Below, piece after piece: positions 8,156 through 15,050 of a DNA stretch of 64,000 nucleotides. The stretch's first letter is position 1; each line of letters begins with the position of its first letter. Source of the stretch: Phycisphaerae bacterium (lineage in GTDB: Bacteria; Planctomycetota; Phycisphaerae; Phycisphaerales; SM1A02); assembly GCA_002717655.1 (NCBI GenBank), contig PBAY01000051.1:124001-188000 (forward strand), read 5' to 3'. A program made the position numbers and the translations under genes. The notes beneath the pieces are model-generated. The model did no database searches, was not told the DNA's origin, and saw nothing but the letters and a program-made list of their open reading frames with translations.

Positions 8156-10135
8156 ATGAACAAGCCGAAGATGAATCTTGATGATCTGATGCAGGAACTG
8201 GGTGTCGAAGCACCTCGGACCACGGATAACTCGACGGAAAATGAATCCATCAATGGTTTCACCGGCGAGATCCCTGCCATGTTCCGGCGTCGTGACCCTG
8301 AGTTGAGTCCAACTCCTCCTGACATGGCGGGTGAAGGTCTTGGGCAGTCGATCTCAAACACGCCCATGGATGATGTCGCTGATGAGACTCGAATCCGGCC
8401 TGACGATGCCGTTGAGGAATTCTGGCGACCAGATCCAATCGATGAACCCAGATCAGCCGATCTTGCAGACCGACTTGTCGCCGACGGTTCAATCGCACCC
8501 GACATCGTTGAAACCGCTCGGCGAGTGCTCTCACAATCGCCTGGTCGAGTTCTTGCAGAAGTACTGATGGAAATGGGAGCTGATCAGCAGGTCATCCAGC
8601 GCATAGTTGCCGAAGAGTCGAATCTGGCCTTCGAGGATGTCACCAGTGAAAACATCGATCACAGACTGTTTGATCGAATCGGCGCGGAATTCTGCCTCAA
8701 GAATCGCAGCCTGCCGCTGAGACAGGAATCAAATCGAGTCGTCGTGGGAACCACCCGACCGGATGATGTCTTTGTTCTGGATCATGTGAAATCAGTTCTT
8801 GGTGTCGCAGCGGTGAAACATGTCCTGATTACTCCTCAGGCTGTCGAATTGATCATCGAGGAACTTGGGGCAGGCGGGCATGAGGAATATGACGTCGAGG
8901 CCATTCTTGCAGATGTCGAGGATGATGATGTCGAGGTCATCGAGCAAGCAGAAGATGAGGAAGAAGAGGATGCACAGTCATCTCCAGTCGTTCGCTATGT
9001 CAATCATCTGATCCAGACTGCTGTCAAGGAAGGCGCTTCCGACATCCACATCGAACCTGCGGATAAGGCTGTGAAGATCCGCATGCGTGTGGATGGAATT
9101 CTCTATGAGATGATGAACCCGCCACGGAAGATGCTGGCCTCGATCACTTCGCGACTCAAGATCATGGCCCAGCTTGATATTGCTGAACGCCGCCTTCCTC
9201 AGGATGGACGCATACGCGTGACCGTCATGGGTCGACAACTTGATCTGCGTGTCTCGACCATTCCAACCCCTCATGGGGAAAAGACAGTGATGCGTGTACT
9301 GGACAATCGATCCATTCGTGTCGCGCTGAATGAACTGGGATTCGATCCCGTGACCCTGAAATCCTGGGAAAGCCAGATCTCGAGACCACACGGAGTGATT
9401 CTGGTCACCGGCCCCACCGGCTCAGGCAAGACCACGACACTCTATGCCTCGCTGCAGCAGATGGACACGACACGGCTGAATGTCTCAACCGTCGAGGATC
9501 CTGTTGAATACCAGCTTCAGGGGATTACCCAGATCCAGACTCATGAACGCATCGGGCTGACCTTCGCAGCATCACTCCGTGCGCTGCTCCGACAGGATCC
9601 TGACATCGTCATGGTGGGTGAGATCCGCGATCATGAAACAGCGACCATCGCCATCCAGGCCGCACTGACCGGGCATCTGGTTCTGTCCACACTGCATACG
9701 AATGATGCGCCATCCTCAATTACTAGACTCTTCAACATCGGCATCGAACCATTTCTGGTTTCCGGTGCGGTCAATGGTGTCCTTGCACAACGCCTTGTCA
9801 GGCGAATCTGTCCCGATTGCCGGGAGCAGATTGAAATCAGTGGACAAACCCGATCAATGATGGATCAATACGGCATCAGCTGCAATGAGCTGCATCATGG
9901 TGCTGGATGCGCCAATTGCAGAGCATCAGGTTATTCCGGTCGGCTCGGCATCTATGAAATGCTGGAGATGAGCGACTCACTTCGTGATTCAGTAGCAAGC
10001 AGCCCGTCCGTCACGGAATTCCGTCAACAGTGCCTCAAGGAAGGAATGCGATCACTTCGCGCCGATGCCTTGCACAAGATGGCTGATGGACACACCACGA
10101 TGCAGGAAGTACTACGGGTCACCGACGAAGGCTGA
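8156..10135 (+). CDS. gspE: GspE/PilB-family secretion/pilus assembly ATPase
   Basis: A 659-residue hexameric ATPase. The N-terminal 100 residues are acidic and unconserved; a GspE N-terminal (MshEN-type) domain follows. The catalytic domain has Walker A GPTGSGKTTTLYA near residue 420, the Asp box, Walker B RQDPDIVMVGEIRD, and the His box TGHLVLSTLHTNDA. The tetracysteine zinc motif CPDC...CANC is present, as in PilB and GspE but not PilT. It powers polymerisation of pilins or pseudopilins. It is the last gene of the pilM-N-O-P operon and converges on the DUF456 gene 10 bases away. Whether the machine is a type IV pilus or type II secretion system cannot be settled here. Confidence 0.95.
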   Translation: MNKPKMNLDDLMQELGVEAPRTTDNSTENESINGFTGEIPAMFRRRDPELSPTPPDMAGEGLGQSISNTPMDDVADETRIRPDDAVEEFWRPDPIDEPRSADLADRLVADGSIAPDIVETARRVLSQSPGRVLAEVLMEMGADQQVIQRIVAEESNLAFEDVTSENIDHRLFDRIGAEFCLKNRSLPLRQESNRVVVGTTRPDDVFVLDHVKSVLGVAAVKHVLITPQAVELIIEELGAGGHEEYDVEAILADVEDDDVEVIEQAEDEEEEDAQSSPVVRYVNHLIQTAVKEGASDIHIEPADKAVKIRMRVDGILYEMMNPPRKMLASITSRLKIMAQLDIAERRLPQDGRIRVTVMGRQLDLRVSTIPTPHGEKTVMRVLDNRSIRVALNELGFDPVTLKSWESQISRPHGVILVTGPTGSGKTTTLYASLQQMDTTRLNVSTVEDPVEYQLQGITQIQTHERIGLTFAASLRALLRQDPDIVMVGEIRDHETATIAIQAALTGHLVLSTLHTNDAPSSITRLFNIGIEPFLVSGAVNGVLAQRLVRRICPDCREQIEISGQTRSMMDQYGISCNELHHGAGCANCRASGYSGRLGIYEMLEMSDSLRDSVASSPSVTEFRQQCLKEGMRSLRADALHKMADGHTTMQEVLRVTDEG

Positions 10136-10145
10136 GCCGGGGGCA

Positions 10146-10694
10146 TCAATTGAGAATCAAGCCAGCGGAAATCACCGCCCAGATGACAATCGCACAGAGC
10201 ATCTTGATGGTGGTCCCCATGATTCGACCCAGAGACGCCCCCATCGCCGGCTTGACCGAATCGCCGACCGCCATCGGCTTCTGCCCCGAGGTCTCTCCAA
10301 GGACGGCACCGATGAACGTGCCCAGAACGGCACCGATCAAGGTACCGATCACAAGTATCGGGATCAGTACAGAGCCGGCGATCGCACCGACAATACCCCC
10401 GATGAAGGCGCCGATCATGCCACGTTTGGTTCCCCCGCCTGCCTTAGTGCCCGCTACTCCGGCAAATGATTCCGCAATTTCACCAGAGATGGCAAGAATC
10501 AGACCAATGCCCAGACTCCACCAACCGGCATTCGTATGCTCATCCGGGATCAAGACGTAGACATCAAGAAGTTGAGCGCCAAGGCCAAGAATCAGCATGA
10601 TCCAGGTACCAGGCAGTTGCATCACTACCAAAAGCAGACATCCCATCCCCATGATGATGAACATGACAATCAGAAGTATGTGCAACCAAGTCAT
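10146..10694 (-). CDS. DUF456 family membrane protein
   Basis: A 182-residue hydrophobic protein with four to five membrane helices. Small-residue motifs (GGTKRGMIGAFIGGIVGA, GTLIGAVLGTFIGAVLGE) make a glycine-zipper pattern characteristic of DUF456. The function of the family is not established. A clear ribosome site AAGGAG lies 7 bases before the ATG. It overlaps the stop of the upstream deiodinase-like gene by 4 bases (ATGA), so the two are co-translated. Confidence 0.85.
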   Translation of the reverse strand: MTWLHILLIVMFIIMGMGCLLLVVMQLPGTWIMLILGLGAQLLDVYVLIPDEHTNAGWWSLGIGLILAISGEIAESFAGVAGTKAGGGTKRGMIGAFIGGIVGAIAGSVLIPILVIGTLIGAVLGTFIGAVLGETSGQKPMAVGDSVKPAMGASLGRIMGTTIKMLCAIVIWAVISAGLILN

Positions 10695-11371
10695 TGTTCC
10701 GCTCCTTGGTTGTACACCATGATTTCACTCAACTTCTTTCTTTGAATGTTCGGGACAGTCGCCGAATCAGCTGGCCAACCAATGGGGATCAGCATGTAGG
10801 GGCGCTCATAATCAGGTCGATTAAGAATCGAGCCGAGGAACTGCATCGGGCTGGGCGTGTGCGTAAGCGTTGCCAGTCCGGCCTGTTGAGCCGCTGCCAG
10901 AAGAAATCCCACCGCAATGCCGACTGACTCATTCACGTAATACACACGATCCGATATCGCCTCTTCCCGATCATCCTTCATCACCTTGAAGACCACCACC
11001 AGCCATGGCGCTTCTTCAAGAAATGGCTTGTTTTGATCTGTTCCGATGATTTCAAGGTCCCGCAACCAATCCTCACTGGCTCTGGTGCCATAGAAGAGAC
11101 GCTCTTCTTCTTCAGCACCCTCCCGAATCTGACGTTTCAACTCAGGATCATCGACCACCACGAATCGCCACGGTTGTTTGTTCGCACCGCTGGGAGCCGT
11201 GCCGGCCGTAGCGACAATCGACTCGATCAAGGATCGATCGACCGCTGCAGAAGAAAACATTCGAATGGATCGACGCTTCTTCATGATCTCATGAAACTGA
11301 TCTGCAGCCTTATCGGGATCTTTCGGGGCCCATGGTTCGAAAGACAGGTTGGGTGATGAGTCCTGTGACAT
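10691..11371 (-). CDS. Nitroreductase-fold flavoprotein, iodotyrosine-deiodinase-like
   Basis: A 226-residue FMN enzyme of the nitroreductase fold. The FMN-phosphate motif RRSIR is at residues 33-37 and TAGTAPSGANKQPWRFVVV at 55-73. The C-terminal half has VNESVGIAVG and TLTHTPSPMQFL...LNRP, then IPIGWPADSATVP, all close to iodotyrosine deiodinase (IYD). The three IYD substrate-lid residues are conserved with exact spacing: Glu90, Tyr94 and Lys115 (human Glu157, Tyr161, Lys182). This favours reductive dehalogenation of halotyrosines over a generic nitroreductase. It lacks the membrane anchor of animal IYD. It is followed by the DUF456 gene in the same transcript. Confidence 0.82.
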   Translation of the reverse strand: MSQDSSPNLSFEPWAPKDPDKAADQFHEIMKKRRSIRMFSSAAVDRSLIESIVATAGTAPSGANKQPWRFVVVDDPELKRQIREGAEEEERLFYGTRASEDWLRDLEIIGTDQNKPFLEEAPWLVVVFKVMKDDREEAISDRVYYVNESVGIAVGFLLAAAQQAGLATLTHTPSPMQFLGSILNRPDYERPYMLIPIGWPADSATVPNIQRKKLSEIMVYNQGAEQ

Positions 11372-11446: not shown

Positions 11447-13381
11447 ATGATGTATTTCATGGACATCGCCCGAATTTCATTCGTATTGCTCTTCCTTTCC
11501 GGGACTTGTCTGGCGGACCGGACTGCCGATCAGTATCGAAAGGCTTTCGAAAGCATCGACGACGATTGGATGGATCAGATCAGCGACCATACTGAAGTCC
11601 TGACACACTCCCTTCGCCAGCCGCCATGTCTTGAAGTCTGGTTCGCCAAGGCTGGGTCACTCCTCGACAAGATTGCCGGACCTGCTGCAGCCGAGAACTG
11701 TGACTGGGAAGTGGACCTGTCAGAAGGACTCGAGGTCGAACTTCCTCATCTCGGTTCATTGCGAGATATCACACGTGTGATTCGTGCGGATGCTGAACGC
11801 AACATGATTCTGGGAAACAGTGACCTTGTCGCTGATCGAATCGAGATGCTCTACCGCATCTCTGCACATGTAGGACCACCAACACTCATCAGCAGCCTTC
11901 TTGCTTCAGCCATCCTCATGGAAGCAAACGTGCTGCTCGATGATGCCATCTCAAAGGGAATGATCCAGCCGGCTCACGCACAACAGATCCTTCGTTCAAT
12001 GAAAGGGCTGGATCCTGAAGATCCCCTCGGAATGACCGCGGGGCTCGAATCAGAACAGATGTTCGCGATGATCGTCATCGATGACTTCTATGAGGAAATT
12101 GGATCAGATGGACCAATCGTAGAGGAAGCGGATCGTGAGGCCATGGTACGAACCGCAACTGAGATGCATCTTCCTCCTGGAGATTACGAATGGCTGTTCG
12201 CCGGCAAAGCTGCGGTCAAATCGCTATTCGAAAGGTATTACACCGAACTTCTGACTATCTGGAAGAACCGTTCGACGAATGATGTTGAAGCCGAGTCGCT
12301 GAAACTGGAACAGCGAGTGATGGCTGGAGAGTTCTCCCAACTGGCCATGTTACTGGCCGTCAATCTGAGCAAAGCCATGCAGAGAGTGATGGAAGTCGAA
12401 GAACAGATTCAGGAACTACTCCCTCGACTCCAGATGCTTTCCGACGGGCAGACAACAGCCGGAGTCCCTGAAAATGCTGCATCGATCTACGCAAGAGCCA
12501 TTGAACTCGCACAGAGCAGTAAAGATGACTGGAGACGGAACGCCATCGTTCGGGATCAGGTCATCAATGAACTTTATCTTGCTCAACTTGCGAAGACCTG
12601 TTCCTTCCCTGAGCCGGAGGATGTGCCAAGGGCGATTGACGAAGACAAACTTCTGTGGACCGCCCCAGTAATTCCATGGTGGCTTCCATCGATGGATCAA
12701 TTCATCACCGAGTTCGTCTCGATTTCGGATCAAGAGAGAGAATCAGACCGACTCGAAAACGCTCTTGCCAATCTGATCTCAGCCATCAACATCATCCAAC
12801 ATCTGATCCAGTGTTCAAATCTGTCTGCTGCTGTTGTCGCCGCCAATCGGATCTCCTTGATACTTGACCGGATCAGGTCGATGGAGCAAGCCGGACTGTC
12901 TCCTGATGATGCAGCCCGCCTCCTGGCAGCACTTCAAGACATCCCGACCGCGGACCCCTTTGGCATCCAGGCCGCTTCAAGACGATCGTTCCAGAGACTT
13001 GACCATCACCTTGCGGATCTTGCAGCACGGGATCTACTGCCATCGCATGAACTCAAGTCTAACCCGGAACATCTGCTCTATCTGACCGCATGGTTGCGTG
13101 ACCTGCCAGCAGCAACTTCGCTTGACGAGACCTACTTTGGTGTTGAATGCGACTGGCCTGATGGTGAATCCGCGATGGCCTGTCCGCCATTCAATCAGGG
13201 CGCCATTGATGCCGCTGCAACCGATGGCACCCAGGCTACCGAGGCATGGACCTTCAAGGTGAACATGCCGATTGAATCGGCAAGCGACATCTGTTCAACC
13301 AATCCTCAACAACTCGTTGATGAGGCGAGGAAGCAGTTGATTGAAATGCGCCGATCACTCCGCCAGCTGGCGAGCGGATGA
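11447..13381 (+). CDS. Secreted protein of unknown function
   Basis: A 644-residue protein with a signal peptide (residues 1-23; hydrophobic core ISFVLLFLSGTCLA, cleavage likely after CLA). The rest is acidic, largely helical by eye, with no membrane segment and scattered cysteines (near residues 61, 84 and in the last 100). I recognise no domain. GAAGGGA lies about 10 bases before the first of two adjacent ATG codons. It is transcribed divergently from the deiodinase-like gene and converges on lepB 4 bases away. A periplasmic role is inferred only from the signal peptide. Confidence 0.75.
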   Translation: MMYFMDIARISFVLLFLSGTCLADRTADQYRKAFESIDDDWMDQISDHTEVLTHSLRQPPCLEVWFAKAGSLLDKIAGPAAAENCDWEVDLSEGLEVELPHLGSLRDITRVIRADAERNMILGNSDLVADRIEMLYRISAHVGPPTLISSLLASAILMEANVLLDDAISKGMIQPAHAQQILRSMKGLDPEDPLGMTAGLESEQMFAMIVIDDFYEEIGSDGPIVEEADREAMVRTATEMHLPPGDYEWLFAGKAAVKSLFERYYTELLTIWKNRSTNDVEAESLKLEQRVMAGEFSQLAMLLAVNLSKAMQRVMEVEEQIQELLPRLQMLSDGQTTAGVPENAASIYARAIELAQSSKDDWRRNAIVRDQVINELYLAQLAKTCSFPEPEDVPRAIDEDKLLWTAPVIPWWLPSMDQFITEFVSISDQERESDRLENALANLISAINIIQHLIQCSNLSAAVVAANRISLILDRIRSMEQAGLSPDDAARLLAALQDIPTADPFGIQAASRRSFQRLDHHLADLAARDLLPSHELKSNPEHLLYLTAWLRDLPAATSLDETYFGVECDWPDGESAMACPPFNQGAIDAAATDGTQATEAWTFKVNMPIESASDICSTNPQQLVDEARKQLIEMRRSLRQLASG

Positions 13382-13385
13382 GTGT

Positions 13386-14978
13386 CTATCGGATGAATCG
13401 AATACGGCCGAAATCAGGGATCAAGCCAGAGCCCCCGTCAGTCACGGAATAGGGCGCTGGATAGTAGACCATCCAGGCTTTCCCGATCATCAGATCCCCG
13501 GGAACGATGAATGGAGTGTCATCCAATTGTTCCGCAACCAGAGGATGGGGTGCGCCCCAGAGCCTGCTGTCCAGAGATCGGCCCGAGTTGTCACCCAGTA
13601 CGAAGTACTGATCTTCCCCCAGTGTGACGATTGAATCCGGATGAGTAGCAGCAGCGGGACGGTTGATCCTCACCTTGTCACGATGTTCGTCAGCCGGCTC
13701 ATTCCAGTTGCGCGAGAATTTCTGAAGGATGCTCGGTCGATAGTAAAGATCCCGATCCATCGCGATTCTGTTGATGGAGAAAGGTGATGCTTCGAATGAC
13801 CACCAGATCCTCGGAGGTGTTGGATACCGGTGTGCCAGCGCTGACGCTGCAACACCTCTGCCTCGCTGGGAGGTATCCACCATGGAATACTCCAATCGCT
13901 GCTGTGGCGTCCAGTCATACTCAAGCGAAGCGACAAGCTGGTCATTGACTCGCAGTTCCATGGCCTGATCGACATGAATGCACTCCATGATGATTGGAAT
14001 GCCAGCTTTCATCGGCGGCATCTCGCCGCTGATTTGTGAAACCTGCAGTGGATCGGATTCAGGCCACATGGAAACAGTCGCCATCGAGCCATTGAGCTCG
14101 AACTTGAAGAGATGCTGCCGTGTTGCAATATTCAATGCTGCATCCAAGCTCGACTCATCTGGAATGATGGTTGCCGTAATACGCAGGTCGCTCACCTTGT
14201 ACAGGCCGCGAACCGGCGAAAGCATGTTGTAGGCCGTCCAGTCATCAGGTGCTGGATTGGCTCGATCCCAATCCAAAGTCGTTGGCTCAGAGGTATCACA
14301 ACGGAATCCTCCACGGCCTTCACGAGACCAGGCGGATTCAGGCGATCCAATCCAAGGCGAGCCTTTCCAGGAACGCACCAGCTTGTCGGGTTCAACCGGC
14401 TCTGCATGGGTGTCATGAACACGCTGCCAGACACCACTCTGGACATGAGCCGGCTTGCGTGCGACGTGGTAACGATCCTCATCCTCTTTCTGGACAAACA
14501 CATCGCCATCAGCAATCCAGATCGACTCCCCGGGCTTTCCCACGAGTCGCTTGATGTAGTTGGCGGATTCACCGTATGGAATCGTGGGGTTCTTGAAGAC
14601 CACGACATCAAATCGATCCGGCTTCAGGAAGGGATACAAGGTCTTGGTGACGATGATGCGGTCACCCATGCGCGTTCTGAATCGAGACTGATCCGTGATC
14701 CCGTGATCACGTGAGATCTGCCAGTCTCGAAGCCGAGTGGCATCGATCCGTGAATCACCTACGCCAACAGGAGTTGCTGTTCCGGTCTGACTGGATTCAA
14801 CCAACCAATGCTGGCCAAGTAGCGTTGGCGCCATTGAACCGGTGGGAATGACAAAGCTTTCAACCACGAAGCCACGGAAGATCAAGGCAAAAGTGAAGGC
14901 GACCAGCAAGGATTGAAATGTATCAATCACCTTCACTGCAGTAGTTTGATTTTGTTCCTGCTTGCTTGCGATACTCAT
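13386..14978 (-). CDS. lepB: Signal peptidase I with large inserted domain
   Basis: A 530-residue type I signal peptidase. A membrane anchor lies at about residues 20-37. Box B IPTGSMAPTL carries the catalytic Ser48; box D YIKRLVGKPGE carries the general base Lys143; box E GDNSGRSLDSR lies near 462-472. The distance between box D and box E is about 320 residues, against roughly 130 in E. coli LepB. An inserted region (about 185-430) containing FKFELNGS and FEASPFSINR resembles a lectin-like beta-sandwich. ATG 14978 is chosen; a TTG four codons earlier is possible, and neither has a good ribosome site. It removes signal peptides of exported proteins such as those in this window. Confidence 0.93.
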   Translation of the reverse strand: MSIASKQEQNQTTAVKVIDTFQSLLVAFTFALIFRGFVVESFVIPTGSMAPTLLGQHWLVESSQTGTATPVGVGDSRIDATRLRDWQISRDHGITDQSRFRTRMGDRIIVTKTLYPFLKPDRFDVVVFKNPTIPYGESANYIKRLVGKPGESIWIADGDVFVQKEDEDRYHVARKPAHVQSGVWQRVHDTHAEPVEPDKLVRSWKGSPWIGSPESAWSREGRGGFRCDTSEPTTLDWDRANPAPDDWTAYNMLSPVRGLYKVSDLRITATIIPDESSLDAALNIATRQHLFKFELNGSMATVSMWPESDPLQVSQISGEMPPMKAGIPIIMECIHVDQAMELRVNDQLVASLEYDWTPQQRLEYSMVDTSQRGRGVAASALAHRYPTPPRIWWSFEASPFSINRIAMDRDLYYRPSILQKFSRNWNEPADEHRDKVRINRPAAATHPDSIVTLGEDQYFVLGDNSGRSLDSRLWGAPHPLVAEQLDDTPFIVPGDLMIGKAWMVYYPAPYSVTDGGSGLIPDFGRIRFIR

Positions 14979-15050
14979 CACCTTGATCAACAGAGCCTGT
15001 GCCGCCCTGTAAATATACCCCTGTCGAGCAGGGAAGGTCTCAACTGACGA

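Follow-up and report, generated by a model that had tools for sequence, protein, structure and literature searches.

Described deiodinases and the planctomycete homolog

Solved structures of iodotyrosine deiodinase (IYD), the enzyme that takes iodine off tyrosine in the thyroid of animals, include the bacterial enzyme of Haliscomenobacter hydrossis (HhIYD; 5ko7, 5ko8, 5krd), mouse and human IYD/DEHAL1 (3gb5, 3gh8, 4ttb, 4ttc), and a minimal IYD (6pz0, 6q1b, 6q1l, 6tyk) that is presumably from Thermotoga neapolitana. We take the Glu/Tyr/Lys triad positions of these enzymes to bind the substrate zwitterion, the region around residues ~86–120 to be the active-site lid, and the position of human Thr239 to lie near flavin N5. 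With regard to activity, human DEHAL1 is described as deiodinating and debrominating tyrosines in vitro (PMC4708624), and the IYD ortholog SUP-18 of C. elegans as evidence that such proteins can act outside thyroid iodine recycling (PMC3930498); the subgroup is described in PMC6017928.

The analyzed window is a stretch of 64,000 nucleotides from the genome of a Phycisphaerae bacterium (3.07 Mb, 55 contigs, 91% complete). It contains an open reading frame with an ATG start and a TGA stop in the window's ORF list, and the encoded protein of 226 amino acids is very probably a bacterial IYD, its mechanism and reaction being predicted from sequence, model, and analogy with the enzymes above. Residue counts given below refer to a 151-row alignment that consists of 143 IYD-like rows, classed by score (the window protein, 140 other loci, HhIYD, and mouse IYD), and eight contrast rows, which are weak nitroreductase-family matches that we picked ourselves and which do not include the 6pz0 IYD. 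The features discussed here are as follows (window coordinates).

10691..11371, minus strand: IYD-like FMN flavoprotein of the nitroreductase superfamily, 226 aa (intact ORF, PF00881, phmmer, Foldseek)
11102..11104, minus strand: codon GAG of Glu90, triad residue 1 (read from the sequence; Glu in 143/143 IYD-like rows)
11090..11092, minus strand: codon TAT of Tyr94, triad residue 2 (read from the sequence; Tyr in 143/143 IYD-like rows)
11027..11029, minus strand: codon AAG of Lys115, triad residue 3 (read from the sequence; Lys in 142/143 IYD-like rows, Ser in L151)
10856..10858, minus strand: codon of Thr172, which aligns with Thr239 of human IYD (changed to Ala in 5yak) (alignments to human u72223 and 5yak u93676; Thr in 143/143 IYD-like rows)
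10146..10694, minus strand: DUF456 membrane protein, 182 aa, whose start shares a 4-nt overlap with the IYD stop (PF04306, E 1.8e-19)
11447..13381, plus strand: divergent protein of 644 aa whose start looks by eye like a signal peptide and which matched nothing in Pfam or NCBIfam; a syntenic neighbor for which no functional link is claimed

Sequence similarity and predicted fold

Pfam placed the protein in the nitroreductase family (PF00881, E 2.7e-23), and a phmmer search of the PDB specified this further. HhIYD was the top match (5ko7, E 6.4e-69), followed by human and mouse IYD (4.6e-49 to 2.1e-48) and by the 6pz0 IYD (2.2e-27), whereas the best chain without an IYD name (4dn2) reached only 4.9e-15, a gap of ~54 orders of magnitude from HhIYD. 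Identity amounted to 108 of 205 aligned residues with HhIYD (53%) and to 88 of 199 with mouse IYD, which bears out the preliminary description in its claim that the whole protein, and not just its active site, follows IYD.

NfsA, NfsB, BluB, and other enzymes of the superfamily share the nitroreductase fold and PF00881 with the window protein, but it falls far under their curated cut-offs, and IYD outscored them by far in the PDB search. Nine NCBIfam models matched, none at its curated cut-off: BluB was the best (58.9 bits; cut-off 150), and the others included the FbiB C-terminal domain (48.7 bits; 249.55), malonic semialdehyde reductase PRK05365 (37.1 bits; 152), PRK11053 (26.7 bits; 227), and PRK10765 (24.1 bits; 223), the last two of which we take to be NfsB-type and NfsA-type, respectively. 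The genome carries two nitroreductase-family genes, namely the IYD gene and an NfsA-like gene (221.2 bits, slightly below the cut-off of 223); a tblastn search of this genome with the window protein left the NfsA-like gene unmatched at E 10.

An AlphaFold2 model, for which the window protein was aligned with the locus proteins, had a mean pLDDT of 90.5 and a pTM of 0.87. Among 335 Foldseek matches of this model in the PDB, ranks 1–23 were chains of HhIYD, mouse IYD, and human IYD, and ranks 24–25 were the 6pz0 IYD; the best match was monoiodotyrosine-bound HhIYD (5ko8, 51% identity). Helices are predicted at residues 76–96 and 100–107, and ligand-bound IYD forms fill the top Foldseek ranks of the predicted model.

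Active-site residues

Glu90, Tyr94, and Lys115 aligned without gaps with the Glu, Tyr, and Lys of H. hydrossis, mouse, and human IYD, at spacings of 4 (Glu90 to Tyr94) and 21 (Tyr94 to Lys115). These residues and spacings had been the core of the preliminary description, and they held up: the codons are present, and the full triad occurred in 142 of the 143 IYD-like rows but in none of the eight contrast rows, which is more than chance would give. Among the window protein and 28 close relatives, the triad was invariant (29/29). Arg33 and Arg37 were found in 143/143 IYD-like rows and Arg34 in 142/143; we take these three to belong to the Arg/Ser cluster that binds the FMN phosphate in the nitroreductase fold. 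Over the lid region (residues 86–120), the alignment with HhIYD had no gap, suggesting a full-length active-site lid.

Compared with HhIYD, the window protein is gap-free over 205 residues and shares the triad, the Thr, the PSGA motif, and the predicted fold. It differs in carrying Asn64 where HhIYD has His after the PSGA loop (position 64 is Asn in 99, His in 43, and Lys in one of the 143 IYD-like rows), in coming from another phylum, and in that its activity is predicted. Mouse and human IYD likewise share the triad, the Thr239 equivalent, and a lid region without gaps, but their Thr loop reads VTTTPLN in place of LTHTPSP. The minimal IYD is more distant: it belongs to the same superfamily, bears the deiodinase name, and has Glu, Tyr, and Lys, but it is only 192 aa long, has a Tyr-to-Lys spacing of 20 rather than 21, and falls outside the main clade (see below). 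Taken together, scores, residues, and predicted fold make the identification as IYD well supported.

One planctomycete protein, L151, is IYD-like except for a Ser at the position of Lys115.

Predicted reaction and cellular role

By analogy with the described enzymes, the likely reaction is a reductive, FMN-dependent dehalogenation of 3-halotyrosine, and our best prediction is that iodine or bromine is removed from halotyrosines. FMN would be bound at the dimer interface, Glu90, Tyr94, and Lys115 would hold the amino and carboxylate groups of 3-halotyrosine, and the lid would shut over the bound substrate. The halide (I-, Br- or Cl-) would be reduced off in single-electron steps, assisted by Thr172 near flavin N5, to leave tyrosine and halide as products. 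The dimer, FMN, turnover, and halide range in this scheme are carried over from mammalian and H. hydrossis IYD. A cytosolic location is probable, as by eye the protein lacks the N-terminal membrane segment that distinguishes mouse and human IYD, and its role in the cell is probably either the salvage of tyrosine carbon/nitrogen from environmental halotyrosines or their detoxification.

Genomic context was considered on both sides of this reaction. A homogentisate-dioxygenase-like match in the window's genome (33.6 bits; cut-off 21) gives a thin hint of tyrosine catabolism, which might allow breakdown of the released tyrosine; its frame is cut by a contig end, and the match is too thin to rely on. 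On the halogen side, we surveyed 531 neighboring ORFs around 140 loci, in which 11 clusters recurred in four or more loci (the commonest in 14). By eye, none of these 11 clusters was halogen-related (a family-library scan covered the window's own genes), and a halogen-rich gene context was dropped as a candidate. The tryptophan-halogenase family had no match in the window's genome, with the same search positive in 5/14 controls; an animal-peroxidase search matched nothing anywhere, controls included, and is uninformative.

It is possible, if unlikely, that the protein, as a tyrosine-binding flavoprotein of the IYD group, has some other tyrosine derivative as its substrate in the cell (e.g., 3-nitrotyrosine or another phenolic amino acid), with dehalogenation being incidental. 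The broad occurrence of the gene in bacteria with no halogen-related neighbors by eye offers no pointer to a halogen-specific role, and a single amino acid change is said, in work of Mukherjee and Rokita from 2015, to have turned a dehalogenase into a nitroreductase. Nonetheless, nearly all relatives retain the triad and Thr172 as the named deiodinases do, and no positive evidence favors a different substrate. Halotyrosine dehalogenation is the preferred reading.

The DUF456 neighbor and gene order

The ATG of the DUF456 gene lies within a 4-nt overlap with the IYD stop (ATGA). Given this overlap, with the divergent gene on one side (from 11447) and a convergent gspE-like gene on the other (ending at 10135), IYD and DUF456 can be regarded as a two-gene unit, and the overlap makes the co-translation put forward in the preliminary description plausible. 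As a general pairing, the arrangement failed. In a close set of 61 genomes (the window's own and 60 relatives), DUF456 was matched in 52 and both genes were present in 40, but the two lay within 500 bp of each other in only 10 of these 40: all six searched genomes of the window's genus and four further genomes of the family (G009, G012, G017, and G036). A genome with the genes ~4 kb apart (G029) was excluded from this count. In the other 30 genomes the genes did not lie within 500 bp and were mostly on separate contigs of draft assemblies, and two IYD-bearing genomes of the close set had no DUF456 match.

Flank comparisons across the 140 loci showed DUF456 homologs near IYD in 11, all from the window's phylum. 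The divergent gene of unknown function and the gspE-like gene each recurred beside IYD in 14 loci; two loci in each of these counts are copies of the window. The limited adjacency, the confinement of the DUF456 loci to one phylum, and the co-recurrence of the gspE-like and divergent genes point to an inherited, lineage-specific gene order rather than to a general partnership, and we rejected DUF456 as a conserved partner of IYD in the general case. That the two proteins nevertheless form a functional pair, with DUF456 as a membrane anchor or transporter, would suit the overlapping genes and their adjacency throughout the searched genus and in four more genomes of the family; it is improbable in view of the 30/40 genomes that separate them, the two that have IYD without DUF456, and the recurrence of the gspE-like and divergent genes in the same inherited block. 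Still more improbable is the specific proposal that, in the window's genus, the two proteins of the operon jointly constitute a halotyrosine dehalogenase attached to the membrane, where DUF456 would act as an anchor, or as a passage for halide or halotyrosine, in the manner of the N-terminal segment of animal IYD.

On the minus strand at 13386–14990, a signal peptidase I of 534 aa has its Peptidase_S26 match broken into three stretches, and it appears from the sequence to have long insertions in its catalytic domain.

Phylogenetic placement

All trees were anchored by three named deiodinases only. In a 70-row tree, the window protein fell into one large group with HhIYD and mouse IYD, where it was placed with its genus (support 97/97) inside a 24-row clade rich in Phycisphaerales (100/99). 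HhIYD lay inside a Bacteroidota clade, which mouse IYD joined on a long branch to form a wider group of 13 rows (95/91), and the 6pz0 IYD together with four planctomycete proteins was positioned outside the main group (98/92). The named loci nearest the window protein were metagenome-assembled genomes (MAGs) of Phycisphaerales and Phycisphaerae, and in one of these (L061) IYD is likewise accompanied by the gspE-like gene and the divergent gene. We accordingly regard the host as a planctomycete of the order Phycisphaerales; the marine label of the preliminary description found no support in these results.

The separation from more distant nitroreductases was less firm. When these were added, 25 IYD rows were split from 10 others with a support of 71/94 and very long outgroup branches, and an AU test did not reject a topology that forced four nitroreductases beside three rows of the window's genus, again with very long branches (p 0.179). 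The 151-row tree placed three of the eight contrast rows next to mouse IYD, with branch lengths of 8 to 10. The phylogeny of IYD against general nitroreductases that had been proposed as a check on the initial assignment agreed with it in the grouping with HhIYD and mouse IYD, but gave only a weak root against the wider set. Considering the long outgroup branches, the support of 71/94, and the AU result, we base the family assignment less on the root than on scores, residues, and fold. The least probable reading, which we disfavor, is that of a general nitroreductase or FMN reductase that resembles IYD only as any member of the superfamily would, since a superfamily-level Pfam match, a best NCBIfam match to BluB at 58.9 of the required 150 bits, and a weak root are set against the ~54 orders of magnitude between HhIYD and the best non-IYD-named chain, the missing full triad in all eight contrast rows, and the failure of the genome's own NfsA-like protein to match at E 10.

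Mouse IYD, on its long branch, joined the Bacteroidota IYDs in the 70-row and 151-row trees and the IYDs of Ignavibacteriota and Chloroflexota in the wider tree. This placement, obtained with one animal sequence, would fit an acquisition of the gene by animals from bacteria.

Distribution in bacteria

The IYD-like gene is common in bacteria, though patchy, as judged from sequence matches. In the close set, 42/61 genomes matched with an E-value of 4e-59 or lower (one of these matches being a fragment at a contig end), and 19/61 were without an IYD-class match; five of the 61 had weak matches only. In a broader sample of the phylum, 139/392 genomes matched a 29-row profile at E 1e-20, and 123/392 had IYD-type scores (four as fragments only), leaving 269/392 without. 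Scores in this sample fell into two classes separated by a wide gap: full-length matches of the upper class started at 249.4 bits, and the lower class reached 102.5 bits at most; residue checks covered the matches fetched as loci.

A pattern scan of named genomes returned at least 590 stretches, and 588 of those listed encode a relative. The best 80 of these 588 relatives bore the names of 12 phyla, including 35 from Bacteroidota and 19 from Planctomycetota, with four lacking a phylum. This sample is biased, as the patterns were derived from planctomycete and H. hydrossis sequences, and single odd phylum names may be binning errors given that most of the named records are MAGs. The solved bacterial structures agree with the earlier view that IYD activity has been established in a few bacterial species, but the gene itself is common in bacteria (42/61 and 123/392 genomes; at least 12 phyla).

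Among the papers listed in literature searches, none linked IYD to Planctomycetota, and a Phycisphaerae genome paper (PMC11266412) makes no mention of nitroreductase, iod-, halogen, dehalogen- or sulfatase. The single window protein, though well supported as an IYD, is an ordinary representative of a known family and adds little beyond the frequency of that family. This frequency in Planctomycetota and Bacteroidota makes the bacterial use of IYD testable in cultured members of both phyla.

The lower score class of the phylum sample comprised 16 of the 139 matching genomes (75.4 to 102.5 bits), 15 of them from one family, f30. Four proteins from planctomycete genomes of f30 (L143, L144, L146, and L147) represent a second, distant type, and the closest solved relative of L143 was the minimal 6pz0 IYD (E 2e-28) rather than HhIYD. 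In the eight contrast rows, among which these four are included, the triad Glu was replaced by Asp in five and the Tyr by His in four. The type formed by these four proteins is possibly a related enzyme with an altered substrate.
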